Part shown: positions 38,206 to 63,483 of the stretch, one piece after another
How the letters are laid out: the number at the start of each line of letters is the position of its first letter
Position numbering within the stretch: position 1 is the first letter of the stretch
Source: Aliiglaciecola sp.
GTDB lineage: Bacteria; Pseudomonadota; Gammaproteobacteria; Enterobacterales; Alteromonadaceae
Assembly (NCBI GenBank): GCA_028356795.1
Contig: JAOMVH010000001.1
Coordinates: forward strand, 1 to 64,000
Reading direction: 5' to 3'
Length of the DNA: 64,000 nt
The notes under the pieces: generated by a model
Told to the model about the DNA's origin: nothing
The model's input: the letters and a program-made list of their open reading frames with translations, nothing else
Databases searched by the model: none
Position numbers and translations under genes: made by a program

Positions 38206-38212
38206 GATTGGA

Positions 38213-38947
38213 CTAGAGTGTGCTATTTTTCTTTTCTATCAACAATGACAAGTTAGACATAGATGCTTCCATCATGTGGATCAGCTGCAAATAGCCGAGT
38301 TGATGTAGTTGCTGAAGTGTGTCGCCAGATAATCCCGCGACTTTTTCTTCATGAATGGTGTACAAACTGTTTAGCTCATGCTGCGAGTTGTCTTTTAACG
38401 TGACCTTGATATTGACCGATTCAATCAAATCTAACTCAAGCAGTTTGTCGATGAATTCTTTGCTTTGCTGGTGGCCCAGGTGAATGGCTTGCAACACTGA
38501 ATTAATGTTATGCAAATAGTCACTTTGTCCACCTTGACTCAAAAATACCGGCACCGCATCAGTGTCTGAGTCATCGGTAGACACTCTGGGGCTGTCCATA
38601 TCCACAAAAACCACCGGATCTTTGGTTAAAACACCGTCTTTTTGAATGTTTTGAAAACCAATTAAAAATGGACGGCGCTGAATACTTAGTGGGATGTAAT
38701 TCGCCTGCCAGCCATCATCGTTCAAAAACAAGTTTTCATTGTCTCCAAAGCCCAACATGGCGATAGTTTCAAATTGACCGGTTTCAGAATGTTTATGGAA
38801 AAATATTGGATAGAACCCCTGAACCTCACGAAACTCAGACACAAAGACATTGCTAAAACTAACATCGTCGCCAAGGCCGGGTCGCATGCTGGCGATGACT
38901 TTTAGGTCTTTGTGAGTAACGTTATCAAGAAGTTGATGATTGGGCAT
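38213..38947 (-). CDS. SapC family protein
   Basis: 'FYPIFFHKHSETGQFETIAMLGFGDNENLFLNDDGWQANYIPLSIQRRPFLIG' pattern typical of SapC proteins next to halogenases and TonB receptors. Confidence 0.85.
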   Translation of the reverse strand: MPNHQLLDNVTHKDLKVIASMRPGLGDDVSFSNVFVSEFREVQGFYPIFFHKHSETGQFETIAMLGFGDNENLFLNDDGWQANYIPLSIQRRPFLIGFQNIQKDGVLTKDPVVFVDMDSPRVSTDDSDTDAVPVFLSQGGQSDYLHNINSVLQAIHLGHQQSKEFIDKLLELDLIESVNIKVTLKDNSQHELNSLYTIHEEKVAGLSGDTLQQLHQLGYLQLIHMMEASMSNLSLLIEKKNSTL

Positions 38948-39033
38948 GAAAGCTCCTAATAAATAATTCGAATCATGGTGTTAACCTGAATAGGCTACCA
39001 CCATGGAGATAAACAGAGCAACACAGAGCTGCG

Positions 39034-40673: not shown

Positions 40674-43643
40674 CTAGAAAGAGTAGCGAGCACCAAAGTT
40701 ATATCGAGAGCCGTATTGACGAGCAAATAGGAATTGCTCTTCATAACGACCATAACCTTCTTCTGTTTCATTGGTTAGGTTTATTCCTTCAAAGAATACC
40801 GTCAAATTGTCATTCACATCATAGTTGATGCTCAGATCAGTTTGCGCATACTCTTTTCCAAATTGCGGCGGACTTTCTGCCGAACCTTGTTGTTGTCCAA
40901 CACCAATCAAGTAATCATCACGCCATGCGTAAGTGAGTTTGACTGACAAACCGTCTTTTTCATAAAACAGTTGGGTGTTTGCTGAGTCACTCAAGCCGTT
41001 CAACGGAGATTGTGCATCGAAGCTTTCTGTATCGTACTCCACATCGCCATCAACTAACGTGATATTGAAGCTAGCACCAAAACCAGTTTCACCAAACATG
41101 TGCTGAATCGCGAACTCGATACCATCTACCGACTTGTCGTCACCATTTTCAGGACGGCTTACTAACCACTCAATCAAAGGATCATTTTCGTTTTGACGAA
41201 TGATTTGAGTTTGACAACATGCATCATCAACCCCTTGGCCACTATCAATCAATTGTTGCCAAATGGCACCGTCAGTCACATCAACGCCGTCAGCAACTAG
41301 CTCAGCGGCAGCTTGCGCAGCACGCGGGCCATTCAACGGATCACGAAGGTTATCAACGGTCACTAAGGTTTGAACCGTACTAATGAAGTTCTTCACGTCT
41401 TTTCTGAAGTAACCTAAAGCAATGTAACTGGCATCAGCGTAATAATATTCAGCCGTTAAATCGAAGTTGGTTGACTCGAAAGGCTGAAGATTAGTATTAC
41501 CAGAGCTACCATTTCTGCTACCTGGCTTAGGAGCCGCAGATAGTGATCTGGCACCAACTAAGTTACCCAAAGGCGCACGAGTAATGGTTTTACTCGCTGA
41601 GAAACGCGTAATCAATTCGTCAGTAACTTCTACTTTAATATCTAAATTTGGCAGAAGTAAGTCGTGCTCTCCAGAGAAGGCGACACTACCCGTATCACTG
41701 GCTCTGTAACGCAGTTGCCACTCAGTGGGGTTTGACCAAACCACAAAGTCTTCAATATCTTGATTAACCACACTGGTGACTTCGGTTTCTTCGTAACGAA
41801 GACCGACGTTAACATCAATGGGCATGTCGTCAATTTCAAAATACATATCAGCAGCTATGTAAGCACTTTGTGTTTGCTCGGTTAAGTCAGCGTATGTATT
41901 AACCGCATTTGACTGGGCAAATGGGTCTGTCTCAAAGCCAAAGAACGACTGCAGACGACCAACCGCTTCGGCGTAATCAAAGTCGTAAAAGTAGTTGGTT
42001 GTTAGGTTTGCACCACCATTTGAAAACTGATCGAGCAAATCACCTGTGCTAGTACGGGTGAACATACTGTCAGGGAAAATCGCCTGGTTGCCATTGTAAC
42101 CACCTGGTCCTTGGTTGCCACTAAATGCATTGCGACCGCCAAAGGTTTGATCAGTGCTTGATAAGCCGCCTCTAACAGCCATCAAGAAGCTATCTTCAGG
42201 GTTTTCCCAAGTACCATGTAATTGCAACTGCTCAACAGTAGACTCACCGACTCCGCGACTGAACTGCGCAAACAAGGGATCAAAGTCATTTGCTGAAGCT
42301 TCCGCTGCACCGTCTGGCCAAGTTATGTCATATTGCGGAATGCCACCTTGAGAGAAATCATAGGTTTTGGTGACAATGTTATTCGGCCCTAAGATGATGT
42401 TACCTGAGTGATTGGTGCCGCCATCAGCACCGTTATCAGTGGTCGTTTTAGAGTCGTGGTAATCTAACTCGAAATGCAAACTATCATTGAACTGCCATTC
42501 CCAGTTGAAACCAATCGAGTCACTTTCAACCAACAGCGTTTCAGCGTTTGCAGAGTGAGCAAAATCGTTGGCTGTTTCTGTAAAGTTAATCGCGGTACCG
42601 CGTTCATCTAGTTCATAATCAGTAACGTTACCACCGAAGTTAAACCAAATGCCAAACCCTTTTCCGGCAGTTGCCTGCTCAATCTCAGAGTAAACATAGT
42701 CGAGGGTAAAGGTCATGTCATCACGAGGCGCATATTGTAATGTAGCTTGGCCATTAAAACGTGAACGATCGACGTTATTGATATTGTTTGAAATTTGACG
42801 AGGGAAGTAGGTGTGTCCTGCTTTGCCGTCTTCAGTTGCACCATCAGCAGTATCTTCCGCTGCATTAGCGGCGTCAGGTCTTGCGTCAATAAACGATGTT
42901 GCATTGGTAAATGGTCCCTGATCGGCTTGCCAACCGGGAATATTTGCACTTTGCTGTTGGAAATTACGAGTTTGGTGAGACAAGGAAACCGCAAAACCTA
43001 AGGTATTGTCTAAGAATGTGTCGCTGTATAGCGCTGACAATTCAGGTGTAACATCTTCACCTTCCACATTGGATTCGTCGTATATGCCCTTGGCAGATAC
43101 AGCATATTTCAAACCGGGTGAGTTTAACGGTTTAGCGGTAATAATGTTAACCGTCGCACCCAAACCACCTGAAGGTATATCAGCTCGGCCTGTTTTGTAT
43201 AGCTCTAGTGCACTAACACCGTCAGAGGCTAAGTTTTCCAAGTCAAACGAACGAGTATTACCCGTTCCCGGCATCTGACGGCCGTTTAGGGTTACCAAGT
43301 TAAAGCTTGGACCAAAACCACGTACTGTGATTTGGCTACCTTCACCATTTTTGCGACTAATAGTTACACCGGTAATACGTTGTAAGGATTCTGCTAAGTT
43401 GGTGTCTGGGAATTTACCCATTTCCTCAGCGGAGATAGCATCAACAACACCTTGTCCATCACGTTTGATGTCCATAGCGCGAATTAAACTGCCACGGATA
43501 CCGCGTACTGCGATGACTTCGACATCATCACCAGCTGCTGAGGCCGCTTCTTCTTGGGCTTGTGCCGTTGACATTGCTGCTGTTCCCATTAGCAATGAAA
43601 TCGACGCCGCCAAATATTTTTTATTGAAAGTCATATGTTTCAT
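40674..43643 (-). CDS. TonB-dependent receptor (glucan-oligosaccharide uptake candidate)
   Basis: 'VEVIAVRGIRGSLIRAMDIKRDGQGVVDAISAEEMGKFPDTNLAESLQRITGVTISRKNGEGSQITVRGFGP', terminal 'YGSRYNFGARYSF'. Confidence 0.95.
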   Translation of the reverse strand: MKHMTFNKKYLAASISLLMGTAAMSTAQAQEEAASAAGDDVEVIAVRGIRGSLIRAMDIKRDGQGVVDAISAEEMGKFPDTNLAESLQRITGVTISRKNGEGSQITVRGFGPSFNLVTLNGRQMPGTGNTRSFDLENLASDGVSALELYKTGRADIPSGGLGATVNIITAKPLNSPGLKYAVSAKGIYDESNVEGEDVTPELSALYSDTFLDNTLGFAVSLSHQTRNFQQQSANIPGWQADQGPFTNATSFIDARPDAANAAEDTADGATEDGKAGHTYFPRQISNNINNVDRSRFNGQATLQYAPRDDMTFTLDYVYSEIEQATAGKGFGIWFNFGGNVTDYELDERGTAINFTETANDFAHSANAETLLVESDSIGFNWEWQFNDSLHFELDYHDSKTTTDNGADGGTNHSGNIILGPNNIVTKTYDFSQGGIPQYDITWPDGAAEASANDFDPLFAQFSRGVGESTVEQLQLHGTWENPEDSFLMAVRGGLSSTDQTFGGRNAFSGNQGPGGYNGNQAIFPDSMFTRTSTGDLLDQFSNGGANLTTNYFYDFDYAEAVGRLQSFFGFETDPFAQSNAVNTYADLTEQTQSAYIAADMYFEIDDMPIDVNVGLRYEETEVTSVVNQDIEDFVVWSNPTEWQLRYRASDTGSVAFSGEHDLLLPNLDIKVEVTDELITRFSASKTITRAPLGNLVGARSLSAAPKPGSRNGSSGNTNLQPFESTNFDLTAEYYYADASYIALGYFRKDVKNFISTVQTLVTVDNLRDPLNGPRAAQAAAELVADGVDVTDGAIWQQLIDSGQGVDDACCQTQIIRQNENDPLIEWLVSRPENGDDKSVDGIEFAIQHMFGETGFGASFNITLVDGDVEYDTESFDAQSPLNGLSDSANTQLFYEKDGLSVKLTYAWRDDYLIGVGQQQGSAESPPQFGKEYAQTDLSINYDVNDNLTVFFEGINLTNETEEGYGRYEEQFLFARQYGSRYNFGARYSF

Positions 43644-43747: not shown

Positions 43748-44252
43748 TTATTCAGACAAAATCACAGCGTTGTCGACACGATAAATTGCGCCACCACCTG
43801 TTGCCCATGCTGGGAATATCATCACAACATCAATTGCACTTATGTCTAGTCCGGCATCAGATAATGCTAGCAAATCGAAGGTATAGGTTTGCCATTGACC
43901 AACAACTGGGTCTTGACCTTCATTGCTGGTGTTAAGGTTCACTTCTGCAAACGACGTGTTGCCATCTGCTTCTATTTTTAACAACCAATCTGTATCACCA
44001 CCTGAAGGAGCCGCTACCATTTTCATTTCAAATTGTAGCTTACCTGTTGTTAAGTAGGCCGACGCGTCAAATGGTGTGCCATCGTCACGACTATAGAAAC
44101 CCAGTACCGTGCCATTGTTATCTAAGATTTGGAATTCAGCGGTTGCGCCATGGTCCGCATCATCTGCTTCAACCGTTGGCGTCGTTCCACCGCAACAATC
44201 CCATAATGGCCACCCTGTGTTCACCTCATCTTTAAAGAAGGCTAGCACTTCA
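43748..44252 (-). repeat. GH16 module repeat 4 (C-terminal)
   Basis: 'VLAFFKDEVNTGWPLWDCCGGTTPTVEADDADHGATAEFQILDNNGTVLGF...YRVDNAVI'. Boundaries approximate. Confidence 0.85.
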
Positions 44253-46939
44253 TTTGAACCTGCATCTGGCGTATCTGAACCCGGGTTACCAATAATGAGG
44301 TTATCTACACGGTAGATTGCACCTTCACCGGTTTGCCATGCTGGGAATATCATGATGACGTCAATGGCACTGATATCTAATCCTGCATCAGACAAGGCTG
44401 ACAGACTAAATGTATAGGTTTGCCATTCGCCAGTAACTGGGTCCAAACCTTCAGTACTGGTATTTAACGCAACTTCTGCAAACGATGTGTTGTTATCCGC
44501 TTCTACCTTTAACAACCAGGTTGTATCAGCAGTAGGCGGGCTAACCACTTTCATTTCGAAGCTTAATGAACCGCTTGTTAATAGTGCAGATGCATCAAAT
44601 GGTGTGCCTTCCTCTGGTAGGCGGCTGTTAAAACCAAGTACCGTACCGTTGTTATCTAGTATTTGGAATTCAGCAACTGCGCCGTGATCAGCATCATCTG
44701 TTTCAACCGTTGGTGTTGTGCCGCCACAACAATCCCACAATGGCCAGTTACCACTTGCTGCATCAGCAAATACCACTTCACGAGGTCCTGTTGGTCCGTT
44801 TGTCGCGTTTGGATTGTAGATTTTTGCGTTATCAACACGATAGATTGCACCTTCACCGGTTTGCCATGCTGGGAATATCATGATGACGTCAATGGCACTG
44901 ATATCCAAACCTGCATCTGCTAAATCAGATAGCGAGAATGTATAGGTTTGCCATTCGCCAGTCACAGGATCCAAACCTTGAGTACTGGTATTTAAGGCGA
45001 CTTCTGCAAACGATGTATTGTTGTCAGCTTCTACTTTTAACAGCCAAGTCGTATCAGCCGTCGGTGGACTAACCACTTTCATCTCAAATTCAAGCACACC
45101 CACTGTTAGCAGTGCTGAGGCATCAAACGGTGCTACCTCGCCGGGTAAGCGGCTGTTAAAACCAAGTACGGTACCGTTATTATCGAGAATTGAGAACTCT
45201 GCTACCACACCGTGTTCAGCATCATCCATTTCCTCTGTTGGTGTTGTACCACCACAGCAGTCCCATAAAGGCCAATCTAAATTAGTTTGATCTTCAAAAA
45301 TTACTAATTCAGGGAATGTTTGGGCACCCGGTTCAGCAATGGTTAGGTTATCAACGCGATAGATTGCGCCTTCGCCTGTTTGCCATGCTGGGAATATCAT
45401 AATAACGTCAATGGCACTTACGTCTAAACCTGCGTCGGATAATGTCTGTAGCGGGAAGGTGTAAGTTTGCCACTCGCCAACTGCTGGGGCTGCACCTTCT
45501 AAGCTTGTATTCAAAGCGACTTCTGCAAATGACGTGTTGTTGTCACCTTCTACTTTCATCAGCCACGTTGTAGGGGTAGTCGTATCAGCAACAACCTTCA
45601 TTTCAAAGGACAAGTTACCCGTGGTTAACATCGCTGAGGCATTGAAAGGCACACCGCCTTCTGATACATCCGGGCGACTGTTAAATCCTAATACCGTACC
45701 GTTGTTATCCAAAATTTGGAATTCAGCCACTGCACCATGTTGTGCATCGTCTGTCACAACTGCTGGAGTTGTACCACCACAGCAATCCCAAAGTTTCCAA
45801 AGCGGGTTTTCCGCGTCAGAGAAGATGGTGATTGGAACGGCAACATCTGGCGTTGGTGGAGTAGGAGCAGGTGCTTTACCCTCTACTAAGGTGTCTTCGT
45901 CTTTGTAGCCAGCACGAATGGTTTCACAGCCTGCGCCTGTTAGTGGGTCAGCGGCACACTCGTAGACACGAACGTAATCTACTACCATGCTTTGACCTTC
46001 ACCGGCGAAAGCGGTCTCATCAATACCAAGATTATTGACATTTTCAGGCCAGTTTCCGCCTACTGCAACATTCAAGATGATATGAAAGTCTTGGTCAAAT
46101 GGAGAAGCATCCCAGAAGGTTTGTTGTTCACCGGTGGCAATATCAAAATATTCAGCGAACCAACCACGATGTTTCAGACCAACTGCTTCGCCTTTACTGT
46201 TGAAACGGACTTCAGAAGCCATTTGAGTTGCATACAAATAACCATCCATATACCAACGAATTTCACCTTCTTGCCATTCTATCGCGTAAGTGTGGAATCC
46301 ATCAGCAGGATTAGATGCTGGCGTATATGCTTGACCTGAGCTTTCATTGTTAGGAAAGTCGCGACCGTAGTGCAAGGTGCCGTAAATGTTGGTTTCTTCT
46401 ACGCCAGCATCATTAAGGGTTTTAAGGTTAACTGACTCGAAAATATCGATTTCACCTGATTTTGGCCAACCGCCATATACTTCGTCAGTTGGTAACATCC
46501 AAAATGCCGGCCAAGAACCTTGACCAGCGGGCATTTTAGCGCGCATTTCAAAACGACCGTATTTCCAGTCGCCTTTGTTCTTAGTGACCATTCGAGCTGA
46601 AGAGTAGGGTAATTGAGCATCTACTGCAGCTTTAGCAACAATATTTAGCATACCGTCGGCTACAAACGAGTTTTCAGCAGAATCTGTATAACACTGCTTC
46701 TCCTGATTGCCACCGCCAGCACAATCGACTTCGTGTGTCCACTTGGCCGAGTCAATGCTTGTACCTTCAAACTCATCGTTCCATACCATTACCCAATCAG
46801 ACACTGGGGCTGAGGTATCAACTGCCTTAATGTCGGTACTTGTGTCTGAACCGCCACATCCCGCCAGTGTGAGTGCCAATATGGCGCTCGCTGACAGAGA
46901 CAGATTGCGCGTCGTGTGCTTAACGCTTTTAATTCTCAT
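43748..46939 (-). CDS. GH16 endo-beta-1,3-glucanase (laminarinase) lipoprotein with four C-terminal carbohydrate-binding-like modules
   Basis: Lipobox 'LALTLAGC'; catalytic 'SGEIDIFESVN' (ExDxxE), 'MPAGQGSWPAFWMLP'; four ~165-aa repeats each with 'WDCCGGTTP'. Confidence 0.95.
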   Translation of the reverse strand: MRIKSVKHTTRNLSLSASAILALTLAGCGGSDTSTDIKAVDTSAPVSDWVMVWNDEFEGTSIDSAKWTHEVDCAGGGNQEKQCYTDSAENSFVADGMLNIVAKAAVDAQLPYSSARMVTKNKGDWKYGRFEMRAKMPAGQGSWPAFWMLPTDEVYGGWPKSGEIDIFESVNLKTLNDAGVEETNIYGTLHYGRDFPNNESSGQAYTPASNPADGFHTYAIEWQEGEIRWYMDGYLYATQMASEVRFNSKGEAVGLKHRGWFAEYFDIATGEQQTFWDASPFDQDFHIILNVAVGGNWPENVNNLGIDETAFAGEGQSMVVDYVRVYECAADPLTGAGCETIRAGYKDEDTLVEGKAPAPTPPTPDVAVPITIFSDAENPLWKLWDCCGGTTPAVVTDDAQHGAVAEFQILDNNGTVLGFNSRPDVSEGGVPFNASAMLTTGNLSFEMKVVADTTTPTTWLMKVEGDNNTSFAEVALNTSLEGAAPAVGEWQTYTFPLQTLSDAGLDVSAIDVIMIFPAWQTGEGAIYRVDNLTIAEPGAQTFPELVIFEDQTNLDWPLWDCCGGTTPTEEMDDAEHGVVAEFSILDNNGTVLGFNSRLPGEVAPFDASALLTVGVLEFEMKVVSPPTADTTWLLKVEADNNTSFAEVALNTSTQGLDPVTGEWQTYTFSLSDLADAGLDISAIDVIMIFPAWQTGEGAIYRVDNAKIYNPNATNGPTGPREVVFADAASGNWPLWDCCGGTTPTVETDDADHGAVAEFQILDNNGTVLGFNSRLPEEGTPFDASALLTSGSLSFEMKVVSPPTADTTWLLKVEADNNTSFAEVALNTSTEGLDPVTGEWQTYTFSLSALSDAGLDISAIDVIMIFPAWQTGEGAIYRVDNLIIGNPGSDTPDAGSNEVLAFFKDEVNTGWPLWDCCGGTTPTVEADDADHGATAEFQILDNNGTVLGFYSRDDGTPFDASAYLTTGKLQFEMKMVAAPSGGDTDWLLKIEADGNTSFAEVNLNTSNEGQDPVVGQWQTYTFDLLALSDAGLDISAIDVVMIFPAWATGGGAIYRVDNAVILSE
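44281..44790 (-). repeat. GH16 module repeat 3
   Basis: 'VVFADAASGNWPLWDCCGGTTPTVETDDADHGAVAEFQ...YRVDNLIIGNPG'. Boundaries approximate. Confidence 0.85.
44812..45311 (-). repeat. GH16 module repeat 2
   Basis: 'LVIFEDQTNLDWPLWDCCGGTTPTEEMDDAEHGVVAEFS...YRVDNAKIYNP'. Boundaries approximate. Confidence 0.85.
45340..45838 (-). repeat. GH16 module repeat 1
   Basis: 'ITIFSDAENPLWKLWDCCGGTTPAVVTDDAQHGAVAEFQ...YRVDNLTIAEPG'. Boundaries approximate. Confidence 0.85.
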
Positions 46940-47342: not shown

Positions 47343-48731
47343 ATGGCAATGTCAAAACGTATAGATAGAACGTTTTTTATCATTCTATTAACATTTTTAG
47401 TGTTTGGATGTTCCAAGCAAAATGCTGGGAGGAATGTTCAAACCGTTGGGGTTGAGAAGGTAATCGAATCAACCTTTAATGGTGACTATCAGCAGAATAT
47501 TGCGGTAGCTATCAATATTGGTGGACCTGAATATACAGGATTTGACGGTATTCAATACGCCGCAGATACCCTGCAACTTGATGCGCCTAAATTGCAATCT
47601 GGAACGATTAAAGGTTCTCAAGATCCAACTTTGTATCAAAGTTACCGTGTCGGCAATATGAAAATACCCTTGCCGGTTGAAAATGGCACTTACGATATAA
47701 CATTCAAATTTGCCGAGCCAGACGAGGTACCGGTTGGTGGTCGTCTTATTGATGTATATGCGCAACAACAATTGTTGCTCAAGGACGTGGATATAAGAAA
47801 GGCTCGAGACGGTAATATTTTATCTTCCTTAGATAAGACAGTGACTGGTATCGAGGTCAGCAACGGAGTCTTGGAGTTATCGTTGCAAGGAAAGTCACAA
47901 CTGGCTGTTTTGCATGCTTTGATTGTCAGAAAAAGTGGCATTGATACTCAAGCATCCTGGCAGTTGGTTTGGCAAGACGAATTTGATTATCAAGGTGCGC
48001 CAGATCCTGAAAAATGGCGTTTTGATGTGTGGCCAGCTCGTAAAGTGAATGGCGAGGATCAGGCCTACACACAAAGGCCTAAAAATGTACGTGTCGAGAA
48101 CGGACACCTAATCATTCAGGGACACAAAGAAGAGTATGGCAACGCGGAATATACCTCAGGGCGTATTCATACTATGGGGACAAAAGACTTTTTGTTTGGC
48201 AAGGTAGAAGTACGAGCCAGAATACCAGCCGGACAAGGAACATGGGCTGCAATTTGGATGCTGCCCAGTGATCCGTATAAATACTCAACAACCTGCTCTC
48301 CAAATGAAGATTGGCAAGGCAGTACGACGTGTGATGCCTGGCCTAACTCCGGTGAAATCGACATTATGGAATATGTTGGATATGACCCGACTACCATACA
48401 CGGCACAGTGCACACTAAAGCCTATTATTGGATGAACTGGGAGCAACGTAAGGCCAGTATCGACGTGGATGAAAGTGTCAATCAAGACTTTCAGGTTTAT
48501 TCCATGGAGTGGGGTCCTGACTACATTTCTATCGCCATGAATGGTATCCCTTATTTTTATTATGCTAACCAAAACGAAGGTTGGCGGGCATGGCCCTTTG
48601 ATCACCCATATCATTTGATCCTTAATTTGGCAATCGGTGGGGATTGGGGAAGAGCTGGCGGGCCCATTGATAACAGCATTTTTCCCGTACAAATGGACGT
48701 GGATTATGTGCGAATTTATCAACGTAAATAG
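47343..48731 (+). CDS. GH16 beta-glucanase lipoprotein with N-terminal malectin/CBM57-like domain
   Basis: Lipobox 'LLTFLVFGC'; 'IAVAINIGGPEYTGFDGIQYAAD...YDITFKFAEPDEVPVGGRLIDVYAQ' malectin-like; GH16 catalytic 'NSGEIDIMEYVG', 'IPAGQGTWAAIWMLPSD'. Confidence 0.9.
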   Translation: MAMSKRIDRTFFIILLTFLVFGCSKQNAGRNVQTVGVEKVIESTFNGDYQQNIAVAINIGGPEYTGFDGIQYAADTLQLDAPKLQSGTIKGSQDPTLYQSYRVGNMKIPLPVENGTYDITFKFAEPDEVPVGGRLIDVYAQQQLLLKDVDIRKARDGNILSSLDKTVTGIEVSNGVLELSLQGKSQLAVLHALIVRKSGIDTQASWQLVWQDEFDYQGAPDPEKWRFDVWPARKVNGEDQAYTQRPKNVRVENGHLIIQGHKEEYGNAEYTSGRIHTMGTKDFLFGKVEVRARIPAGQGTWAAIWMLPSDPYKYSTTCSPNEDWQGSTTCDAWPNSGEIDIMEYVGYDPTTIHGTVHTKAYYWMNWEQRKASIDVDESVNQDFQVYSMEWGPDYISIAMNGIPYFYYANQNEGWRAWPFDHPYHLILNLAIGGDWGRAGGPIDNSIFPVQMDVDYVRIYQRK

Positions 48732-48800: not shown

Positions 48801-51800
48801 ATGAACAACATGGCAAGCAAAACGACGCAGGGTGAATTTGTCACTCTAAGCGGACAAAAATTTTACAAAATTGAAAATGTAGACGGTATGGCACCGTTTT
48901 TTATCAGTCTCATTTCAAGTAGTGATCATTGGTTGTTTGCTGCCTCAAATGGTGGTTTAACAGCCGGGCGGGTGTCGCCTGAAACAGCTTTGTTTCCTTA
49001 TGTCACGGTTGATAAAATCTATGACAGTGCGCCGCATACAGGTTGCAGAACGATCATTAAACTCGACCACAATGGTGAGTCTGTATGTTGGCAGCCATAC
49101 AATGAGTTGTTAGAACAAAAATATGATGTTCAAAGAAACTTGTATAAGAACGTGCTTGGCAGTCAATTATGCTTTGAAGAAATAAACCACTCGTTGCAAC
49201 TGGCTTTTCGATACACTTGGGCAACCAGTGAAGAATATGGTTTTGTACGCCAAGTAGAGGTTCAAAACCTGTCGACTAATCAACGCAGCATTCATCTTGT
49301 CGATGGACTCGTCAACCTGTTGCCGGCTGGCACCCCAAGATTTACCCAAGCGCAATCCAGTAATCTTGTTGATGCGTATAAATTTAATGAAATTGATGAG
49401 CAAACAGGGGTGGCACTCTTTACCTTGTATTCTGGCATTACTGACCGTGCTGAGCCGAGCGAATCATTGCGAGCAAACACGGTTTTTGTTACCGGTGTTG
49501 AATACAAAAATCTCCTATTGACTGACCGTCAGCTAAAGGGCTTTAAACAAGGTGAAAGCCTCTCTACCGAGCTTGATAGCCGAGGGATACGCGGAGATTA
49601 TTATGTTCACGCTGAGTTAGAATTAGCCGGCGAGCAGTCTCAATCATGGCGAATTGTCGCCAACATCGACCAAGACCAATCGCAAATAGTTGAGCTGATG
49701 AGCCAGTTGGATGATCCTGACTTGCTGCACAAGGCCTTGAATGAATCGATTCTAGCTGGCGACGACGCCTTGGCGAAAATCATGGGTTCAAGTGATGGTT
49801 TTCAGCAAACTGCAGAGCAAGCGGTGGATGTGCATCATTATGCCAACACCTTGTTTAACGTATTACGAGGCGGTATTTTCAACGACCAGTACCAAATATC
49901 AACGGCTGATTTTGCTGCCACACTAGCGCATTTCAATAAAGATTTGGCAAAACGCCACCATGACTTTTTAAGCGCGTTACCAGAGATGGAAAATATTCAG
50001 CGTCTGCTTGATCAAGTACAGCAACAAAACGATCAGCAACTTACACGTCTTGCACTTGAGTATTTGCCCATTACCTTTGGACGTCGACATGGCGACCCAA
50101 GCCGTCCTTGGAACCAATTTGCGATCAATTTAAAAGACAAGCAAGGCAATCCTCTGTTGTCCTATCAGGGTAACTGGCGGGATATTTTCCAAAACTGGGA
50201 AGCATTGACATTCAGCTACCCTGATTTTATCGAAAGTGTCATCGCAAAATTTGTGAATGCCTCGACGATGGATGGTTACAACCCTTATCGAATTACCAAA
50301 GAGGGGATTGACTGGGAAGTGGAAGAACCTGATGACCCGTGGAGCTATATCGGCTACTGGGGTGATCACCAAATTATCTACTTACTGAAGATGCTTGAGT
50401 TATCGAAACAGTTCCATCCTGAAAAGCTGAGCCAGTTGTTGACCGAATCGGTATTTAGTTATGCCAATGTGCCTTATCGGATAACATCGTTTGAAAACAC
50501 CCTGAAAAATGCCAAAAGTACGGTGAGTTACGACGAGGCGTCAGCCAGTGAGATTGAAGCGCGCGTAGAACGTATGGGCGCCGATGGAAAAATGGTATTG
50601 GATGCCGACGGGAATGTTTATCAGGTTAATCTACTGGAGAAACTGTTAGTTCCTTTGTTGTCAAAACTGAGCAACTTAGTGGTTGATGGTGGTATTTGGT
50701 TAAATACTCAGCGTCCTGAATGGAACGATGCGAATAACGCCTTAGTGGGGCAAGGTCTGTCCATGGTGACCTTGTATTATATGCGCCGTTATATTCGCTT
50801 CATGCAGTCTTTGATTGCTGATATGGATCAGTCAACAGACATGTCCAGTGAAGTCAGTGTATGGTTACAGACTACCCATGGTGCCTTAGCCGAGTTTGCG
50901 GCGAGTTTGCAAGCTAACCAAACCGTTTCTATGCAACAGCGCTATGCACTACTCGACAAATTAGGACGTGCTGGTAGTGAGTACCGACTAACTGTTTACG
51001 CTAGTGAAGGCTTTAGTCAAAAAACAGATCAAGCCATTGATACCGTTAAACAATTATTAGACAGTGCATTGGTTTGTATTGATCGTAGTATTGCGCAGAA
51101 TCGAGATGATGACGGGCTATATCACGCTTACAATGTCATTAAACTGGGCTCTGAGACAGTTGAAGTGGGTAATCTTTATCCTATGCTTGAAGGTCAGGTG
51201 GCCGCTCTTAGTAGTGGCGCGATAAAAGGCGAAGAAGCGGTAGAAGTGATTGAGTCACTGTTTGCCTCTGACATCTATCGAGATGATCAACACACCTTTA
51301 TGTTGTACCCAGATAGACAGCAAACACGCTTTCTTAAAAAGAACAGCTTGCCTACTGAAAAAGTCACTGCCATTGGGGTTGTAAAAGACATGTTGGCCGC
51401 GTCAGATAATCGAATCATTGGTCAAGATAAACGCGGTGTCTATCGTTTCAACGCAGACATTAAAAATGCCGGTGATCTAGAAGATGTTATCGCGCAACTT
51501 GCATCAACCTATAGCCCAGCGTTGAACAATGATAAAGCGGCTATTTTCGACTTGTATGAAAGCGTATTCGACCATCAATCATTCACCGGTCGTTCGGGCG
51601 GAATGTTTGGATTTGAAGGTTTGGGTAGCATTTATTGGCACATGGTGTCGAAACTATTGCTGGCAGTAAACGAACAGTTTTTTCAAGCCATTCGAGATCA
51701 ACAATCTGATACTGTCATACGTCGCCTTGGCGAACTATATTACCGTATACGATTTGGTATTGGTTTCAATAAAACGCCTCAGGAATATGGCGCGTTTCCT

Positions 51801-52253
51801 ACCGACCCTTATTCCCATACGCCAAAACATGCTGGCGCACAGCAACCGGGTATGACAGGACAAGTGAAAGAAGAAGTACTCAGTCGTTTTGCCGAACTCG
51901 GTGTGGTAGTTAACAATGGCAAAGTTTCTTTGTGCACACGTTTGTTGCGCACTCGAGAATTTAGTCTTGAGCCAACCCAGTTACGATATTTAACGGTTAA
52001 TCAACAGTGGCAGGAAATTCACATCCCTGCCAATGGAATTGGTTTCACATGGTGCCAAGTGCCGTTTGTCTATGAGTTATCCGATTCAACCTCCGGGAGT
52101 ATGACCATTAGCTATCAAAATGGCCAAACAGAGACAGTCGATGGTCTGGAATTGAACACCGAACAAAGTGCTTTGTTGTTTGATCGTTCAGGCGAAATCA
52201 GCCAAATTCACGTGTTACTAAACCGCCAACAGCTTTTTACAGCAGAAGGATAA
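48801..52253 (+). CDS. Putative beta-1,3-glucan phosphorylase (GH149/GH94-like), predicted cytoplasmic
   Basis: 1150 aa, no signal peptide; 'YLPITFGRRHGDPSRPWNQFAINLKD...LSYQGNWRDIFQNWEAL', 'MDGYNPYRITKEGIDWEVEEPDDPWSYIGYWGDHQIIYLLKMLE', 'PQEYGAFPTDPYSHTPKHAGAQQPGMTGQVKEE'. The GH149 choice over GH94/GH161 is by size and context. Confidence 0.75.
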   Translation: MNNMASKTTQGEFVTLSGQKFYKIENVDGMAPFFISLISSSDHWLFAASNGGLTAGRVSPETALFPYVTVDKIYDSAPHTGCRTIIKLDHNGESVCWQPYNELLEQKYDVQRNLYKNVLGSQLCFEEINHSLQLAFRYTWATSEEYGFVRQVEVQNLSTNQRSIHLVDGLVNLLPAGTPRFTQAQSSNLVDAYKFNEIDEQTGVALFTLYSGITDRAEPSESLRANTVFVTGVEYKNLLLTDRQLKGFKQGESLSTELDSRGIRGDYYVHAELELAGEQSQSWRIVANIDQDQSQIVELMSQLDDPDLLHKALNESILAGDDALAKIMGSSDGFQQTAEQAVDVHHYANTLFNVLRGGIFNDQYQISTADFAATLAHFNKDLAKRHHDFLSALPEMENIQRLLDQVQQQNDQQLTRLALEYLPITFGRRHGDPSRPWNQFAINLKDKQGNPLLSYQGNWRDIFQNWEALTFSYPDFIESVIAKFVNASTMDGYNPYRITKEGIDWEVEEPDDPWSYIGYWGDHQIIYLLKMLELSKQFHPEKLSQLLTESVFSYANVPYRITSFENTLKNAKSTVSYDEASASEIEARVERMGADGKMVLDADGNVYQVNLLEKLLVPLLSKLSNLVVDGGIWLNTQRPEWNDANNALVGQGLSMVTLYYMRRYIRFMQSLIADMDQSTDMSSEVSVWLQTTHGALAEFAASLQANQTVSMQQRYALLDKLGRAGSEYRLTVYASEGFSQKTDQAIDTVKQLLDSALVCIDRSIAQNRDDDGLYHAYNVIKLGSETVEVGNLYPMLEGQVAALSSGAIKGEEAVEVIESLFASDIYRDDQHTFMLYPDRQQTRFLKKNSLPTEKVTAIGVVKDMLAASDNRIIGQDKRGVYRFNADIKNAGDLEDVIAQLASTYSPALNNDKAAIFDLYESVFDHQSFTGRSGGMFGFEGLGSIYWHMVSKLLLAVNEQFFQAIRDQQSDTVIRRLGELYYRIRFGIGFNKTPQEYGAFPTDPYSHTPKHAGAQQPGMTGQVKEEVLSRFAELGVVVNNGKVSLCTRLLRTREFSLEPTQLRYLTVNQQWQEIHIPANGIGFTWCQVPFVYELSDSTSGSMTISYQNGQTETVDGLELNTEQSALLFDRSGEISQIHVLLNRQQLFTAEG

Positions 52254-52260
52254 TGAACCA

Positions 52261-53163
52261 ATGATTCGAGATTATTACCGCAATCGAACACTAGCGAGTG
52301 TTGACTTTTCTGCCCTAAGTATTGAGGAGAAAAAAGCCTTAGTGACGGATCGTTTGAAGCAGAAGGTGCATGGCATTTCATTTAGTCCTTATGTGAAAGG
52401 GCAAGGACCAGGTACTCAGGTGACCGATTCCTTGATCCGTGAACGTTTATCGATAATTTCTCCTTATGTGGAGTGGATCCGAACGTTTTCCTGCTCTGAG
52501 GGGAATGAATTAATACCGGCAATTGCTGCCGAATCTGGCCTTAAGTCTTTAGTGGGTATATGGCTTGATGACGATCTTGAAAAAAACGAAGAAGAGATTC
52601 AAGGTGCGATTAAAGTGGCGCAAGCCGGTCATGCTGGCATGCTGGCAGTGGGTAATGAAGTCTTGTTACGTGGTGAGTTGTCACCGGACCAGCTAATTGC
52701 ATACATAAAACGAGTACAAGCTGCCGCTCCAGGCGTGCCTGTTGGCTATGTCGATGCTTATTTCGAATTTGTCGATTATCCCCAAGTAACTGATGCATGT
52801 GATGTCATCTTTGCCAATTGTTATCCGTTTTGGGAAGGCTACCCCATTGAGCATGCGCTGGTTTATATGAAAGATATGTATCGACGAGCTAAAGATGTTG
52901 CCAAAGGTAAACCTGTTATTGTGAGTGAAACCGGCTGGCCAAATTTAGGCACAGCAGAAAGAGCGGCTATTCCATCTTTTGATAATGCAATTTCTTATTT
53001 TCTAAACGCCTATCAATGGGCCGACGATGAAGGAATTGATTTATTCTATTTTTCATCTTTTGATGAGGCATGGAAAGTTGAAGATGAAGGAGATGTTGGT
53101 GCTTATTGGGGCTTGTGGGACGAGCAGGGCGAGCCTAAATATGCCAATTTAGATAGCGAATAA
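52261..53163 (+). CDS. GH17 family beta-1,3-glucanase/glucosyltransferase-like protein, no signal peptide
   Basis: 'GISFSPYVKGQGPGTQV', acid/base 'LAVGNEVLLRGE', nucleophile 'KPVIVSETGWPN', 'LFYFSSFDEAWKVEDEGDVGAYWGLWDE'. Confidence 0.9.
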   Translation: MIRDYYRNRTLASVDFSALSIEEKKALVTDRLKQKVHGISFSPYVKGQGPGTQVTDSLIRERLSIISPYVEWIRTFSCSEGNELIPAIAAESGLKSLVGIWLDDDLEKNEEEIQGAIKVAQAGHAGMLAVGNEVLLRGELSPDQLIAYIKRVQAAAPGVPVGYVDAYFEFVDYPQVTDACDVIFANCYPFWEGYPIEHALVYMKDMYRRAKDVAKGKPVIVSETGWPNLGTAERAAIPSFDNAISYFLNAYQWADDEGIDLFYFSSFDEAWKVEDEGDVGAYWGLWDEQGEPKYANLDSE

Positions 53164-54111
53164 ATGTTGATGAATTTTCAAGCTCAAAACGCAATTTGCT
53201 ACTCAGGATACCGACTTGGCCAAAACCCACAAGACAGTGTTTTTCCCAGTTACGATGAGGTGAAGCAAGATTTATATATTTTGGCTCAGCATTGGTCACT
53301 GCTTAGGCTCTATGACTGTAGTCATCATGCACAATTGGTATTAAATGTTATTCGCAATGAAAAGCTTGCTCTGAAAGTTATGTTGGGTGCTGATTTAGCG
53401 GCAGAGGTTAGCAATCCTGATTGTCCTTGGGGTGCGCACTATAGCGATGGCCAATTACTGGCAAATAAACGTCACAACCAACAACAAATTAGACAGCTAA
53501 TTGATTACTGCAAAGCATTTCCTGAGTTGGTTTACGCGGTTTCTATAGGCAACGAAGCGAGTGTTGATTGGACCGATCATTTGGTACCAGTGTCGTCGCT
53601 AATAACCTATGCAAAGCAGCTAAAGCAGGCCATCACTCACCCCATCACATTTTGTGAAAACTATGTGCCTTGGGTTCACAAATTACAGCCATTGGTTGAT
53701 TTGGTCGATTTTATTTCTATCCATACTTATCCGGCTTGGGAATACAAAAACGTGCAAGATGCGATTGCGTATACCCACGATAATTATCTCACTGTGCGCA
53801 ATGCATACCCAGATAAACCCATTGTGGTCACAGAAGCTGGCTGGACAACTCGTTCAAATGGACGAGGGATAGAGGTTCATCATGCCAATGAAATGAATCA
53901 AGTATCCTACTATCAAGACTTAATGGCTTGGTCCAAGGAGCACAACATTCTGACCTTCACATTTGAAGCGTTTGATGAGCCGTGGAAAGGCTCTGGTGAT
54001 GATAATGAGCCGGAAAAACATTGGGGGCTGTTTTATGTGGACAGGACGCCCAAACCAGTTATGCAAAGTTTATTTGAACCCGCCCAACCATTATGTGTGG
54101 CCAGCGCTTAG
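53164..54111 (+). CDS. GH17 family protein (second), no signal peptide
   Basis: 'NAICYSGYRLGQNPQ', 'AVSIGNEASVDW', 'KPIVVTEAGWTT', 'TFTFEAFDEPWKG...EKHWGLFYVDRTPK'; starts directly after the preceding stop. Confidence 0.9.
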   Translation: MLMNFQAQNAICYSGYRLGQNPQDSVFPSYDEVKQDLYILAQHWSLLRLYDCSHHAQLVLNVIRNEKLALKVMLGADLAAEVSNPDCPWGAHYSDGQLLANKRHNQQQIRQLIDYCKAFPELVYAVSIGNEASVDWTDHLVPVSSLITYAKQLKQAITHPITFCENYVPWVHKLQPLVDLVDFISIHTYPAWEYKNVQDAIAYTHDNYLTVRNAYPDKPIVVTEAGWTTRSNGRGIEVHHANEMNQVSYYQDLMAWSKEHNILTFTFEAFDEPWKGSGDDNEPEKHWGLFYVDRTPKPVMQSLFEPAQPLCVASA

Positions 54112-54376
54112 CTGGCCTCTTTGGCTTTTAGGCGCCAGTTGCTTATCACAGCCTAGCACGTTCATTTCAGCCGTTGTTATACTAACCCGCCTTAATATGT
54201 GATCAGCCCGGAAGCTCATGATAAAAGTCTTATCAGAGCTTCCTTACGGGCGAGTTTAAAATGACGTATCTCTTTGTTGTATTGTATCGCTTTAACCCGT
54301 TAGACCTTCAACAATACGCCTTGATGTACGCCATTTTAATTCTCGCTGAGTGATCATATATAAAGGCAATTTGGTA

Positions 54377-55969
54377 TTATCTCACTAATGTAGCTTCCAA
54401 CTCTTCCAACGACTTACCTTTTGTTTCGGGTAGCAAGGACATGATGATCCCCAACCCAATCAAGGCAAATCCCCCGTAGATGGCGAATGTTAAGGTAACG
54501 CCTAAGGTGGCAAGTTCCCAAGGAAACACCAACTGTACTAAGAAACTGGTGGCAGAATTTATTAAGCCAACAAAAGAGATGGCAATTCCGCGGATGCGGT
54601 TGGGAAATAATTCAGAAAACAACACCCACATAACCGGACCTAACGAGATAGCAAAACAAGCAACAAAGCCAAGCAGGCTGTAAAGCACAACTTGTTGATT
54701 GATATTGATAGCCGCTGCGATAAGTGCTGACTCATGTTCTTGGGCCTCCTGCTTACCGAGTAATTCCACCATCTGAGCTTTGTAACTCAAGTCATTGTCA
54801 AACAGAGTATCTTGAATGGGGGCGAGTCTCGCTGTGCTAATGGTATCTGGTAGTTGGTCGATAGCTTGTTGGTCGAGTTGATATGTCGCTTGGTGAAAAC
54901 TAAAGGACAATAAAAACATACACAGTGCTATGCCGCCAACTCCGAACACCAACAAGGCTTTTCGCCCAATACGGTCAATTAATGCAATGGCTAGAATAGT
55001 AAATATAAGATTGGTGATGCCAACAAAGACCGCTTGCATAAACGAGGCGTCAGTGCCAAACCCAGTTTGCTCAAAAATCATGGGTGCGTAAAAGAATACC
55101 GCGTTAATGCCGGTTATTTGTTGCAAGATTGCCACACAGACACCAATGACTAACACTAACTTCATCGCTGGCTTAAACAAATCTTTGATGGAAGAGCTGC
55201 CACCCGATTGCCCTGAGGTCAGTGTTTCTTTTATATTGGCTATTTCTGTTTCCATTTCCTGTTCAGCCAGAGTCTTTGACATCACTTGTCTGGCATCTTG
55301 GTCCCTGCCTTTTAACAGCAACCAACGAGGACTTTCAGGTACGAACATCAGCGCAATAAAATATAGCAGAGCTGGTACCGCCTCAATGCCTAACATCCAG
55401 CGCCAATTCCACTCATTAATATTCAGGTTTTGTACCCATGTCTGCTCTGAAGAGCCCATCGACAAAATCAAATAGTTACTAAAAAACGCCACCGTGATAC
55501 CTACCACAATGTTCAGTTGATTGAGGGAAACGAGTCGTCCTCGATATTTGGCTGGTGCAAGCTCTGCGATATACATGGGGGCGATAATAAGCGCTGCACC
55601 AACTCCCAATCCGCCGAGCATCCTGGCGATAACAAGGGTAATAAACGACGGTGCAAGTGCAGACAACACCGCAGAGACTAAAAATAATAAGGCGGCAGCT
55701 TTTAGCACGGGTTTACGTCCATACTTGTCAGCGATAGGGCCGCTCAACATCATCGCCAAGGTAGCGGTTAAGGAAAGAGACGCCACAGCCCAGCCCAATT
55801 CAATTTTGCTGAGGTTGAACTCCGGTTCGATAAACTTCACCACGCCGGAAATGACAGAGGCATCGAATCCCATTAAAAAACCGCCAAGGGCAACGATAAA
55901 ACTTATATAGGTTATTTGGAACATCGCGCTAGAAACGAATTTTGACATAATTGACACTCTTTGAGTCAT
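54377..55969 (-). CDS. Sugar porter family MFS transporter
   Basis: 'GFLMGFDASVISGVVKFIEPEF', 'GPIADKYGRKPVL', 'PESPRWLLLKGRDQDA', 'QQITGINAVFFYAPMIFEQTGFG', 'LPETKGKSLEELE'. Confidence 0.95.
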   Translation of the reverse strand: MTQRVSIMSKFVSSAMFQITYISFIVALGGFLMGFDASVISGVVKFIEPEFNLSKIELGWAVASLSLTATLAMMLSGPIADKYGRKPVLKAAALLFLVSAVLSALAPSFITLVIARMLGGLGVGAALIIAPMYIAELAPAKYRGRLVSLNQLNIVVGITVAFFSNYLILSMGSSEQTWVQNLNINEWNWRWMLGIEAVPALLYFIALMFVPESPRWLLLKGRDQDARQVMSKTLAEQEMETEIANIKETLTSGQSGGSSSIKDLFKPAMKLVLVIGVCVAILQQITGINAVFFYAPMIFEQTGFGTDASFMQAVFVGITNLIFTILAIALIDRIGRKALLVFGVGGIALCMFLLSFSFHQATYQLDQQAIDQLPDTISTARLAPIQDTLFDNDLSYKAQMVELLGKQEAQEHESALIAAAININQQVVLYSLLGFVACFAISLGPVMWVLFSELFPNRIRGIAISFVGLINSATSFLVQLVFPWELATLGVTLTFAIYGGFALIGLGIIMSLLPETKGKSLEELEATLVR

Positions 55970-56123: not shown

Positions 56124-57320
56124 ATGCCAAATGTCATTAGGATTTCTATGACCCGCAGATTTATTGATCTAATAATTAGATTCATTGAGAATCATCCCAT
56201 ACGGACGTTTTGGTTTTGGCAAACTGGTTTTTGGCTGTTCGTCAGCATCACCAGCTTTCTTACCTTAACTCTATGGTATGGGCCCTACGATTGGTCTCAC
56301 CTCATTCATATTATTGTTCAGGCCGGAATCGGATTATCTCTATCGTTGCTGATGTATTGGCTATTTATGGAGTCTTGGGAGAAGTCGACCCGTTATAGGG
56401 CCTGGATAGTGGCTGTAAGTATTATCATAGGTTCATTTGCTTGGACACTGGCAAGACTGCAAGTCTTTGTTTGGGTTACCGGCGAAACAGAAGAATGGTT
56501 GCAGTTAGGTGGTTGGCATTTTGCTAGTATTTTCATATTCTTATGTTGGACAGGCTTGTTTTTTGGTATTCGCTACTATGAGTTGTTACAAACCGAACAT
56601 GACATATTACTTCGTGCTGAGTCAGATGCTCGTGAGGAGCAGCTTAAGCGAATGAAAGCGCAAAACGTTGCCCGAGATGCGCAGTTGAAAATGCTGCGCT
56701 ACCAATTGAATCCGCATTTTTTGTGCAACACGTTAAATGCCATTAACTCATTGGTAGAATTCGAAGAAACCGAAAAAGCGCAAAATATGACGGTGCAATT
56801 GAGCAAATTCTTGCGTCATTCACTGGATAACAATCCTGATACAAAAGTGACGCTTGAGAACGAGATAAAAGCGTTAAACCTCTATTTAGAGATTGAAAAA
56901 ACTCGCTTTGAAGATCGCTTGGTGGTTAATTTTGAAATTGACGAGCAAGCTAAACAGGCACTGGTTCCAAGTTTGCTGCTACAACCTATTATCGAGAACT
57001 CAATGAAGCACGCTATTTCTCAAAGTGAAGATGGTGGTACCATTAGTTTGCAAGCTAGCGTCAAGAATAATCGTCTGATTCTTGCGCTAAGCGACTCAGG
57101 AAATGGCAATAAAGTTGCCAATACAAAGTTACAAAGTTCTACGGGACGAGGGGTTGGATTGCGAAATATCGATGAACGACTAAAAGCGCTCTATCAAGAT
57201 GATTATCGAGTAGATATTGGCTTTTTGTCTTCAGGGGGACTAAAAACAACCATTGTCTTACCTCATGAAAGTAACAAACTTACCTCTCCATCGGTTTATC
57301 AACAAGGAATTTTATCATGA
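56124..57320 (+). CDS. LytS-like sensor histidine kinase (His_kinase family)
   Basis: Multiple TMs then 'LKMLRYQLNPHFLCNTLNAINSLVEFEETEKAQNMTVQLSKFLRHSL', 'LLLQPIIENSMKHA', 'GVGLRNIDERLKALY'. Confidence 0.93.
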   Translation: MPNVIRISMTRRFIDLIIRFIENHPIRTFWFWQTGFWLFVSITSFLTLTLWYGPYDWSHLIHIIVQAGIGLSLSLLMYWLFMESWEKSTRYRAWIVAVSIIIGSFAWTLARLQVFVWVTGETEEWLQLGGWHFASIFIFLCWTGLFFGIRYYELLQTEHDILLRAESDAREEQLKRMKAQNVARDAQLKMLRYQLNPHFLCNTLNAINSLVEFEETEKAQNMTVQLSKFLRHSLDNNPDTKVTLENEIKALNLYLEIEKTRFEDRLVVNFEIDEQAKQALVPSLLLQPIIENSMKHAISQSEDGGTISLQASVKNNRLILALSDSGNGNKVANTKLQSSTGRGVGLRNIDERLKALYQDDYRVDIGFLSSGGLKTTIVLPHESNKLTSPSVYQQGILS

Positions 57321-58135
57321 GTAAGCTTACTGCCGTTATTGTTGACGATGAGCCCCTTGCGCTAAAATTATTAGCCTCAAAGTTGGCGCAATCCTCACAA
57401 GTTGAAATTGTCGGGCAAGGACGAAATGGCCGTCAAGCCATTGACTTAATCATGGACTTATCACCAGATCTGGTCTTTTTGGATATTGAAATGCCAGGAT
57501 TAAATGGGTTTGATGTCGTTAAGCACTTGCAAAGTGATATTGTGCCATTAGTGGTGTTTACCACTGCCTATGAGCAGTATGCGTTAGATGCGTTTGAAAT
57601 TCATGCGGTTGACTATATTTTAAAGCCGATAGATGAGACTCGCATAAATAGAGCGGTTGAACGTGCCGTAGAGCGCAAAATGGCGGCACAGCTTGATGAC
57701 AATAAGCCGCGCATCATTGATGCGATCCATTCAATAAGACGCAGTCAATCTGAACATGCCAGTGTTCAACCTGACGTCATTTCTCGGACTCAATCAGCTT
57801 TGGTTGACGCCAAAGTGGTGATAAAAGACCGCGATGAGATAACCGTATTAAAACAGAGTGAAATAAAGTGGATTGATGCCGCAGGAGACTATGTTTGCGT
57901 TCATGTCGATGGGGAAACACATATCAAGCGCAGCACTATGAAAGAATTACTCGAAGAACTAGACGACACTATTTTTAAACGTATTCACCGCTCTACAATT
58001 GTTAACTTAAACTTCATTGAAAAAGTGATCCCACATACCAAGGGAGAGTTTTTCCTAAAACTGGGTGAGTTTGAGCGAGTTAAAGTAAGCCGCAATTACA
58101 AAGAAGCCATTAAATCTTTTTTAACTGACCGATAG
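57317..58135 (+). CDS. LytTR-family response regulator
   Basis: Receiver 'VIVDDEPLALKLLAS...DLVFLDIEMPGLNGFDVV...ILKPIDETRI'; LytTR 'IKWIDAAGDYVCVHVDGETHIKRSTMKELLEEL...IHRSTIVNLNFIEKV'; ATGA overlap with the kinase. Confidence 0.95.
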   Translation: MSKLTAVIVDDEPLALKLLASKLAQSSQVEIVGQGRNGRQAIDLIMDLSPDLVFLDIEMPGLNGFDVVKHLQSDIVPLVVFTTAYEQYALDAFEIHAVDYILKPIDETRINRAVERAVERKMAAQLDDNKPRIIDAIHSIRRSQSEHASVQPDVISRTQSALVDAKVVIKDRDEITVLKQSEIKWIDAAGDYVCVHVDGETHIKRSTMKELLEELDDTIFKRIHRSTIVNLNFIEKVIPHTKGEFFLKLGEFERVKVSRNYKEAIKSFLTDR

Positions 58136-62240: not shown

Positions 62241-63353
62241 TTAGTGGGCTAAATCCGGCATGCTCTCGAGCATGCCTTCCGCTTTCACTACTGGATAGCC
62301 GAGGTTCATCCAACCAAAAATCCCTTCATACAACACGGCGGTTTGGGTATAACCTAAGTCTCGTAGTTGATTGACAATGTACTCGGTTGCCGCGCGAGGA
62401 CAAGAACAGTAACCAACAATTTGCACATCTTTAGGCAAGTCTTTGAGCTTTTCGGATAAATCTGTGTAATAAGGGAAGGGCACGGCCCCTTCAATATGTG
62501 CGCGCTGCCAAACCGAAGGTACACGGGTATCCAGTATGACCATTTTTTTATTAGCCTGCAGGGCTTGGTGTAAATCCACAGACGACACATAAATACCATC
62601 GGTTAACTCAAAATTAGGGTCGTCACTATCTGGATTAATAATATATTTATCTGGTGTAGGTATCGCTTTTAAGGATGTTGTTTTTATTTGTGCATCTGTG
62701 GCTTTGCTGCGAATAAACGCGGTGACATTATCAATATCTTGTTGAGACAGTTTGTCGGCAAATGCCACCATCGGGGTTCCGTCTCGACCTTTTTCTATGG
62801 TGTAGCGAATGAATTCGTCTTTATTATGGGCAAGCGCAGATGGGTTGGCTAAAGCCGGGGCATTGACTCCTTCACCCTCGACACCGTGACAGGTTGCACA
62901 ATGTGCTTGATAAACAGATTCGCCGCGCTGCACATCACCCTCCACTGGATCTTCAGATAGCTTTACCCGTTGTGCTCCTGATTGCCAAAACAACCAATAG
63001 GTTAAATCCCAAATTTCATCGAGTGTCATAGGCCCGCCAACTTCGTCTAGGTATCCCGCCATGGCGGTACCTTGTCTGCCATAGGATGTTGGTCTTAGAA
63101 TCGCATGAGGTACACCAGACTCAAACAAAGTTGCTGAGCGTAAAGAGGGCGCATGATCGTTTTTATATCCTTCGCGATCATCGCCATGGCATAACGAACA
63201 ATATTTTTGATAATTGGATGCGGCAACTTTGGCTTGTTGTTGGGTGAGTTTTCTTGGAGGATTTTGTTTTTCGTAGACTTTTTGTGCAAACGTGCTAGAC
63301 ATAATAACAAACGTAAGTAGGAGACCGGTTAACCTTACAAGGTTACGATACAT
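62241..63353 (-). CDS. Periplasmic c-type cytochrome (two CXXCH) fused to a C-terminal rhodanese domain
   Basis: 'YQKYCSLCHGDDREG', 'YQAHCATCHGVEGEGVNAPAL', rhodanese 'KKMVILDTRVPSVWQRAHIEGAVPFPY...IVGYCSCPRAATEYIVNQL'. The given ORF starts at 63467; the Met at 63353 precedes a signal peptide and is more likely. Confidence 0.9.
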   Translation of the reverse strand: MYRNLVRLTGLLLTFVIMSSTFAQKVYEKQNPPRKLTQQQAKVAASNYQKYCSLCHGDDREGYKNDHAPSLRSATLFESGVPHAILRPTSYGRQGTAMAGYLDEVGGPMTLDEIWDLTYWLFWQSGAQRVKLSEDPVEGDVQRGESVYQAHCATCHGVEGEGVNAPALANPSALAHNKDEFIRYTIEKGRDGTPMVAFADKLSQQDIDNVTAFIRSKATDAQIKTTSLKAIPTPDKYIINPDSDDPNFELTDGIYVSSVDLHQALQANKKMVILDTRVPSVWQRAHIEGAVPFPYYTDLSEKLKDLPKDVQIVGYCSCPRAATEYIVNQLRDLGYTQTAVLYEGIFGWMNLGYPVVKAEGMLESMPDLAH

Positions 63354-63483
63354 AATTGGATTCCCTCCAGGAATGGCTGTCCAAACTGCCCCATACGGGG
63401 AGACGGTTAAAGTTAATCTCTCTAGATAATCGCATATTGAGCGAAAGGTACACAAGTATTCGGCCAATTAACAAAATCTTAGG

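Follow-up and report, generated by a model that had tools for sequence, protein, structure and literature searches.

Among marine carbon stores laminarin is a major one, and a phosphorylase locus that handles it raises the question of why two cytosolic GH17 enzymes are kept there. We addressed this question in a stretch of 64,000 nucleotides (nt) from Aliiglaciecola sp. (GenBank assembly GCA_028356795.1, contig JAOMVH010000001.1, positions 1 to 64,000; hereafter the window), where the gene for a predicted GH149 beta-1,3-glucan phosphorylase is followed directly by two GH17 genes, here called GH17-1 and GH17-2. The GH17 pair is conserved and never occurred without GH149 in the genomes searched, and we consider it probable (roughly 0.6) that the pair acts in the cytosol, where it trims laminari-oligosaccharides after their import to prepare them for phosphorolysis by GH149, within a laminarin-utilisation operon. 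The operon consists of:

48,801-52,253, + strand: predicted GH149 beta-1,3-glucan phosphorylase, 1150 residues, no signal peptide (NF058639; PDB 6hq6/6hq8)
52,261-53,163, + strand: GH17-1, 300 residues, signal-less, TIM barrel like RmBgt17A, MlGH17B and FbGH17B (PF00332; 4wtp, E 3e-33)
53,164-54,111, + strand: GH17-2, 315 residues (313 if begun at 53,170), signal-less, TIM barrel like FbGH17A (PF00332 and PF02836; 6fcg, E 1.6e-25)
54,099-54,117, + strand: terminator-like hairpin from a consensus scan, 7 pairs of which 6 are G-C, overlapping the stop codon of GH17-2

A preliminary description of the window, made from the letters alone, had noted a tight spacing of 0-7 nt, which the exact coordinates and gene order confirm with gaps of 7 nt between GH149 and GH17-1 and 0 nt between the two GH17 genes. 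The alternative start of GH17-2 at 53,170, two codons downstream, is the one used by homologues. The hairpin is a weak call (10 sites in the region against 6.8 expected, by the consensus scan only) and probably marks the 3' end of the operon. Comparison with a congener shows purifying selection on each of the three genes (pN 0.18-0.25, pS 0.83-0.85), which is reported as nonsynonymous (pN) and synonymous (pS) differences only; synonymous divergence (dS) is saturated between congeners.

The same description had proposed a putative beta-glucan phosphorylase and suggested that hidden Markov models (HMMs) could distinguish GH149 from GH94 and GH161. This comparison, once run, pointed to GH149, as the equivalog HMM NF058639 scored 1723.6 bits (cut-off 1150) over residues 6-1140 and the solved GH149 phosphorylase (PDB 6hq6/6hq8) matched with 1077 bits over residues 7-1140. 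Other phosphorylase families were far behind, with 41 bits for GH161 (9qqk) and 11 bits for the GH94 laminaribiose phosphorylase (6ggy). A Pfam search gave no match for the protein and the NCBIfam model was therefore needed. Judged by its sequence, the enzyme is a GH149 beta-1,3-glucan phosphorylase and not a member of GH94 or GH161.

Both downstream proteins belong to GH17, each with a profile match above cut-off (PF00332 and PF02836 alike for GH17-2), a TIM barrel and the general-acid and nucleophile glutamates, which are conserved in all aligned homologues (44 for GH17-1 and 24 for GH17-2). The AlphaFold2 models are confident (pLDDT 93.6 for GH17-1 and 94.3 for GH17-2). In Foldseek the top structure for GH17-1 was 4wtr (TM 0.79/0.89), and RmBgt17A was its nearest relative in the sequence and fold searches, whereas the endo-laminarinase FbGH17A (6fcg) ranked first for GH17-2 in both. 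Over the part that aligns, the two are about 30% identical, and the divergence that had been read from the motifs VSETGWPN and VTEAGWTT is real: on sequence they are assigned to two distant GH17 subfamilies with different nearest PDB structures. The catalytic residues are E133 and E223 in GH17-1 and E131 and E224 in GH17-2. At the position of MlGH17B Tyr136, equivalent to RmBgt17A Tyr102, GH17-1 has L136 and GH17-2 has V134; W192-E193 is retained in GH17-2, and the MlGH17B-type triad of Tyr136, Trp191 and Glu192 reads Leu136, Trp191 and Glu192 in GH17-1.

A hydropathy scan, used in place of a trained predictor, showed no signal-peptide-like N-terminus in GH149, GH17-1 or GH17-2. The maxima over 10-residue stretches within the first 40 residues were 0.39-1.93, compared to 2.3-3.2 plus a lipobox in the GH16s and the GH81 of the locus; the value of 1.93 belongs to GH149 and lies 28 residues into the protein, and the core of GH17-2 begins at residue 9 with a hydropathy of 0.39. 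Among the homologues, no single-domain GH17-1 and no close GH17-2 carries a signal peptide, and the FaGH17A-type GH17s of the same loci, which mostly do, provide a positive control for the scan. The earlier remark that the three genes lack recognisable signal peptides thus holds, uniformly so among homologues, and GH17-1 and GH17-2 are predicted to be cytoplasmic. Its companion statement, that bacterial GH17 enzymes are usually exported, misses that MlGH17B and the MFS-fused FbGH17B belong to a large subfamily without signal peptides. Exported GH17-2 paralogues with signal peptides are found in related loci (L110:2346-3428, L125:16981-18099, L126:5260-6309 and L082:14344-15441), and the GH17-2 subfamily therefore has exported as well as cytosolic branches. 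A third GH17 in the host genome (L003; C203:3105-3965) has a signal peptide, belongs to another subfamily and is about 34% identical to GH17-2.

The pair and the phosphorylase are linked by their distribution. Of the 199 host-family genomes, 32 have GH149, 24 have GH17-1 (>370 bits) and 22 have close GH17-2 (>350 bits), and every genome with either GH17 falls within the GH149 set (hypergeometric 1.9e-24 for GH17-1 and 6e-22 for GH17-2). These genome-level probabilities overstate independence because the genomes are related, and counted by genus the value is 6e-9. No PF00332 match was seen in this sample outside the 24 GH17-1 genomes. A general marker of a laminarin lifestyle was ruled out by a GH81 control, since across 21 genomes with GH81 the pair occurred in 8 of the 9 that have GH149 and in none of the 12 that do not (Fisher 4.4e-5). 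Across the class, sampled with 369 genomes, single-domain GH17-1 (>400 bits) was found in four, all with GH149, and the remaining GH17-1 matches were mostly long GH17-GT2-like proteins. As 8 of the 32 GH149 genomes are without the pair, GH149 does not need the pair; the pair needs GH149.

GH17-1 precedes GH17-2 in Alteromonadaceae, Colwelliaceae, Woeseiaceae, Steroidobacteraceae, SAR92 and Bacteroidota alike, and in 8 of 16 loci the two genes may overlap by 8 nt. Some relatives have the pair 7-22 kb away from GH149 or on another contig, still together as a pair. The Bacteroidota homologues of GH17-1 are fused to a PF13347 importer. Hydropathy resolves only 9-10 of the expected 12 membrane segments in these fusions, too few to assign a topology. 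In the tree the gammaproteobacterial Leu clade and the MFS-fused Leu clade are separate (support 100/99). Several congeners carry GH149 without the pair, and there the interval between GH149 and the MFS gene is 96 nt in one, 182 nt in one and about 2.5 kb in three. A replacement glycoside hydrolase in this slot was rejected, as the two long intervals that were read (L113:12358-14205 and L115:6225-8036) hold an unrelated lipoprotein of about 600 residues, convergent with GH149, and another interval is only 96 nt. In one related locus (L124:12101-12994) an in-frame stop codon splits the GH17-1 homologue, with GH149 and GH17-2 intact, which is either a pseudogene or a sequencing error.

The surroundings of the operon place it in a laminarin-utilisation locus, where every neighbour whose part in glucan metabolism can be read serves breakdown or import:

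47,343-48,731, + strand: exported lipoprotein with malectin domain and GH16 (PF11721, PF00722; lipobox N-terminus), 69 nt upstream of GH149
43,748-46,939, - strand: exported GH16 lipoprotein with repeated C-terminal modules (PF00722, PF18559)
40,674-43,643, - strand: TonB-dependent receptor (TIGR01782, 611 bits; PF00593, PF07715)
33,327-37,136, + strand: exported GH81 lipoprotein (PF17652)
31,788-33,224, + strand: MFS_2 (PF13347) inner-membrane importer, of the family fused to GH17 in Bacteroidota
27,364-31,438, - strand: two adjacent GH3 enzymes without signal peptide, by their N-termini (PF00933/PF01915)
54,377-55,969, - strand: sugar porter of the MFS (TIGR00879, 357 bits)
56,124-58,135, + strand: LytS-type histidine kinase (PF06580) and LytTR response regulator (PF00072, PF04397)

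The C-terminal modules of the GH16 lipoprotein at 43,748-46,939 are very similar to each other (DNNGTVLGFNSR type, PF18559), and in the GH81 lipoprotein a long linker of PAPTPVPDPP repeats follows the lipobox. Cupin_8, SapC and tryptophan-halogenase-like genes (37,192-40,620) adjoin the TonB receptor and recur in many loci, and the protein encoded at 62,241-63,467 combines cytochrome c domains with a rhodanese domain.

From these components a pathway can be proposed. Laminarin would be cut at the surface by the lipoprotein GH16s and GH81, and the oligosaccharides would enter through the TonB receptor and then the MFS importer. In the cytosol GH149 would convert beta-1,3 chains to glucose 1-phosphate by phosphorolysis from the non-reducing end. 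GH17-2, with its endo-laminarinase fold, may shorten long or branch-carrying oligosaccharides, and GH17-1, with a cleft of subsites -3 to +2, may take short units off the reducing-end side, so that the two together would give GH149 more and shorter ends by a mainly hydrolytic net reaction. Laminaribiose released in this way would be usable, since GH149 acts on a degree of polymerisation (DP) of 2 and up (PMC6484121), and the two signal-less GH3s would serve as beta-glucosidases. Import followed by cytosolic processing fits the predicted location, the neighbours and the co-occurrence, and the pair's strict restriction to GH149 genomes supports the processing of imported oligosaccharides for phosphorolysis. 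This part of what the preliminary description had suggested is thereby strengthened, and its further suggestion of internal glucan synthesis is left without support. Several observations weigh against hydrolytic trimming: 8 of the 32 GH149 genomes manage without the pair, an obligate hydrolytic partner is odd because a phosphorylase conserves bond energy and hydrolysis loses it, the closest characterised relatives of GH17-1 include a true transglycosylase, MlGH17B, which is 53% identical to the hydrolase FbGH17B, and none of the papers searched characterises an enzyme of the close GH17-2 subfamily.

Possibly, GH17-1 (perhaps with GH17-2) instead acts as a beta-1,3-glucanosyltransferase and reshuffles short oligosaccharides into chains usable by GH149, an explanation we hold only tentatively. 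A transferase saves the bond energy and would therefore explain why the pair depends so strictly on a phosphorylase. RmBgt17A is the best fold match of GH17-1, which shares most cleft residues with MlGH17B in the same numbering (including W191, E192, E223, W271, K272, E276 and W283), and Trp-Glu is also present in GH17-2. Against this stands the lack of a tyrosine at position 136 in both proteins, as Y102A is described as having abolished transglycosylation in RmBgt17A (PMC11005184, citing Qin 2015). The residue is Leu or Met in MFS-fused Bacteroidota enzymes and Tyr in nearly all stand-alone ones, and FbGH17B, with Met, is reported to be a glucose-releasing hydrolase. Leu136 was nevertheless rejected as proof of hydrolysis, because all 19 readable GH17-GT2 proteins have the same Leu, and the characterised members of their family are transglycosylases (PMC11005184). 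Residue 136 therefore does not decide the matter, and hydrolysis and transglycosylation cannot be told apart by reading the sequence. The products of an MlGH17B-type enzyme, being beta-1,6-kinked or branched, should hinder a beta-1,3 phosphorylase, DP 2 is already usable by GH149, and the locus is catabolic; for the first and last of these reasons we rank hydrolytic trimming first, with moderate confidence. The stronger proposal, that the signal-less pair is an obligate GH149 partner module for cytosolic disproportionation and that close GH17-2 represents an uncharacterised cytosolic GH17 activity, appears doubtful to us. If the pair does prove to be a transferase module, its interest would be higher, and its dependence on GH149 makes the choice between hydrolytic trimming and transferase-assisted phosphorolysis worth direct biochemistry. 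The natural Tyr/Leu contrast among related GH17s also offers a ready test of the transglycosylation determinant.

Two further explanations were considered. The pair might merely travel with the laminarin locus and have no functional link to GH149, as the GH149 genomes without it and the variable GH149-MFS intervals of the pair-less congeners could indicate. This is improbable, given that the pair is in no GH81 genome without GH149, that GH149 remains in the genome even where the pair has moved away from it, and that GH149-positive genomes are in excess among pair carriers over about 570 genomes. Least probable is an internal beta-1,3-glucan store, with GH149 run backwards and the GH17s branching the chains in synthesis or remodelling: the GH149 reaction can be reversed in vitro (PMC5827456) and a storage role has been proposed for MlGH17B (PMC13188888), but the glucan-related neighbours point to breakdown and import, none of the genes in the locus was recognised as a glucan synthase and the pair is missing outside GH149 genomes.

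A second cytosolic enzyme beside a phosphorylase has a counterpart in E. coli, where MalP and MalQ act on the same oligosaccharides, although there the chemistry is alpha-1,4 and the folds are unrelated to those of GH149 and GH17; it is this arrangement that a disproportionating pair would parallel. Among characterised GH17s, GH17-1 is in the same subfamily as MlGH17B of Muricauda lutaonensis, a signal-less beta-1,3-glucanosyltransglycosylase (PMC11005184), and differs from it in having Leu for Tyr136 and Phe for Tyr168. FbGH17B of Formosa, a GH17 fused to an MFS transporter (PMC6246565), is also of this subfamily, and fusions of its type resemble GH17-1 in carrying Leu or Met at position 136 and share the importer family PF13347 with the window, whereas GH17-1 is unfused and the fused forms are a clade apart. 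With GH17-GT2 (NdvB/Glt-type) proteins GH17-1 has Leu136 in common, and its PFWE motif resembles their PYWE, but they are long fusions of mostly 860-1000 residues. The nearest relatives of GH17-2 in fold and sequence are the endo-laminarinases FbGH17A and MlGH17A (PDB 6FCG, PMC13188888), which likewise have a beta3-alpha3 region longer than in GH17-1; these are exported lipoproteins of about 26% identity, whereas GH17-2 has neither signal peptide nor lipobox, and MlGH17A has His/Asn in place of its Trp/Glu.

At the level of the locus, the 2018 description of Type II GH149 clusters in Alteromonadales already lists a cytoplasmic GH17 (Kuhaudomlarp 2018, PMC5827456), and a Colwellia metagenome-assembled genome expresses GH17, GH16_3 and GH149 from loci resembling polysaccharide utilisation loci in Arctic spring sediment (PMC10811738). 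The window matches the Type II cluster in GH149, TonB receptor, GH16 with pfam11721, cytoplasmic GH17, MFS pfam13347, kinase pfam06580 and response regulator (matched as Response_reg and LytTR; COG3279 itself was not run), and the architecture is therefore not new. The window adds a GH81 and two GH3s, and the passages of that description that were read contain neither the split into two GH17 subfamilies nor a genome-wide dependence. Taken together, the cluster type has been known since 2018, and what our results add is a firmer statement of its logic.

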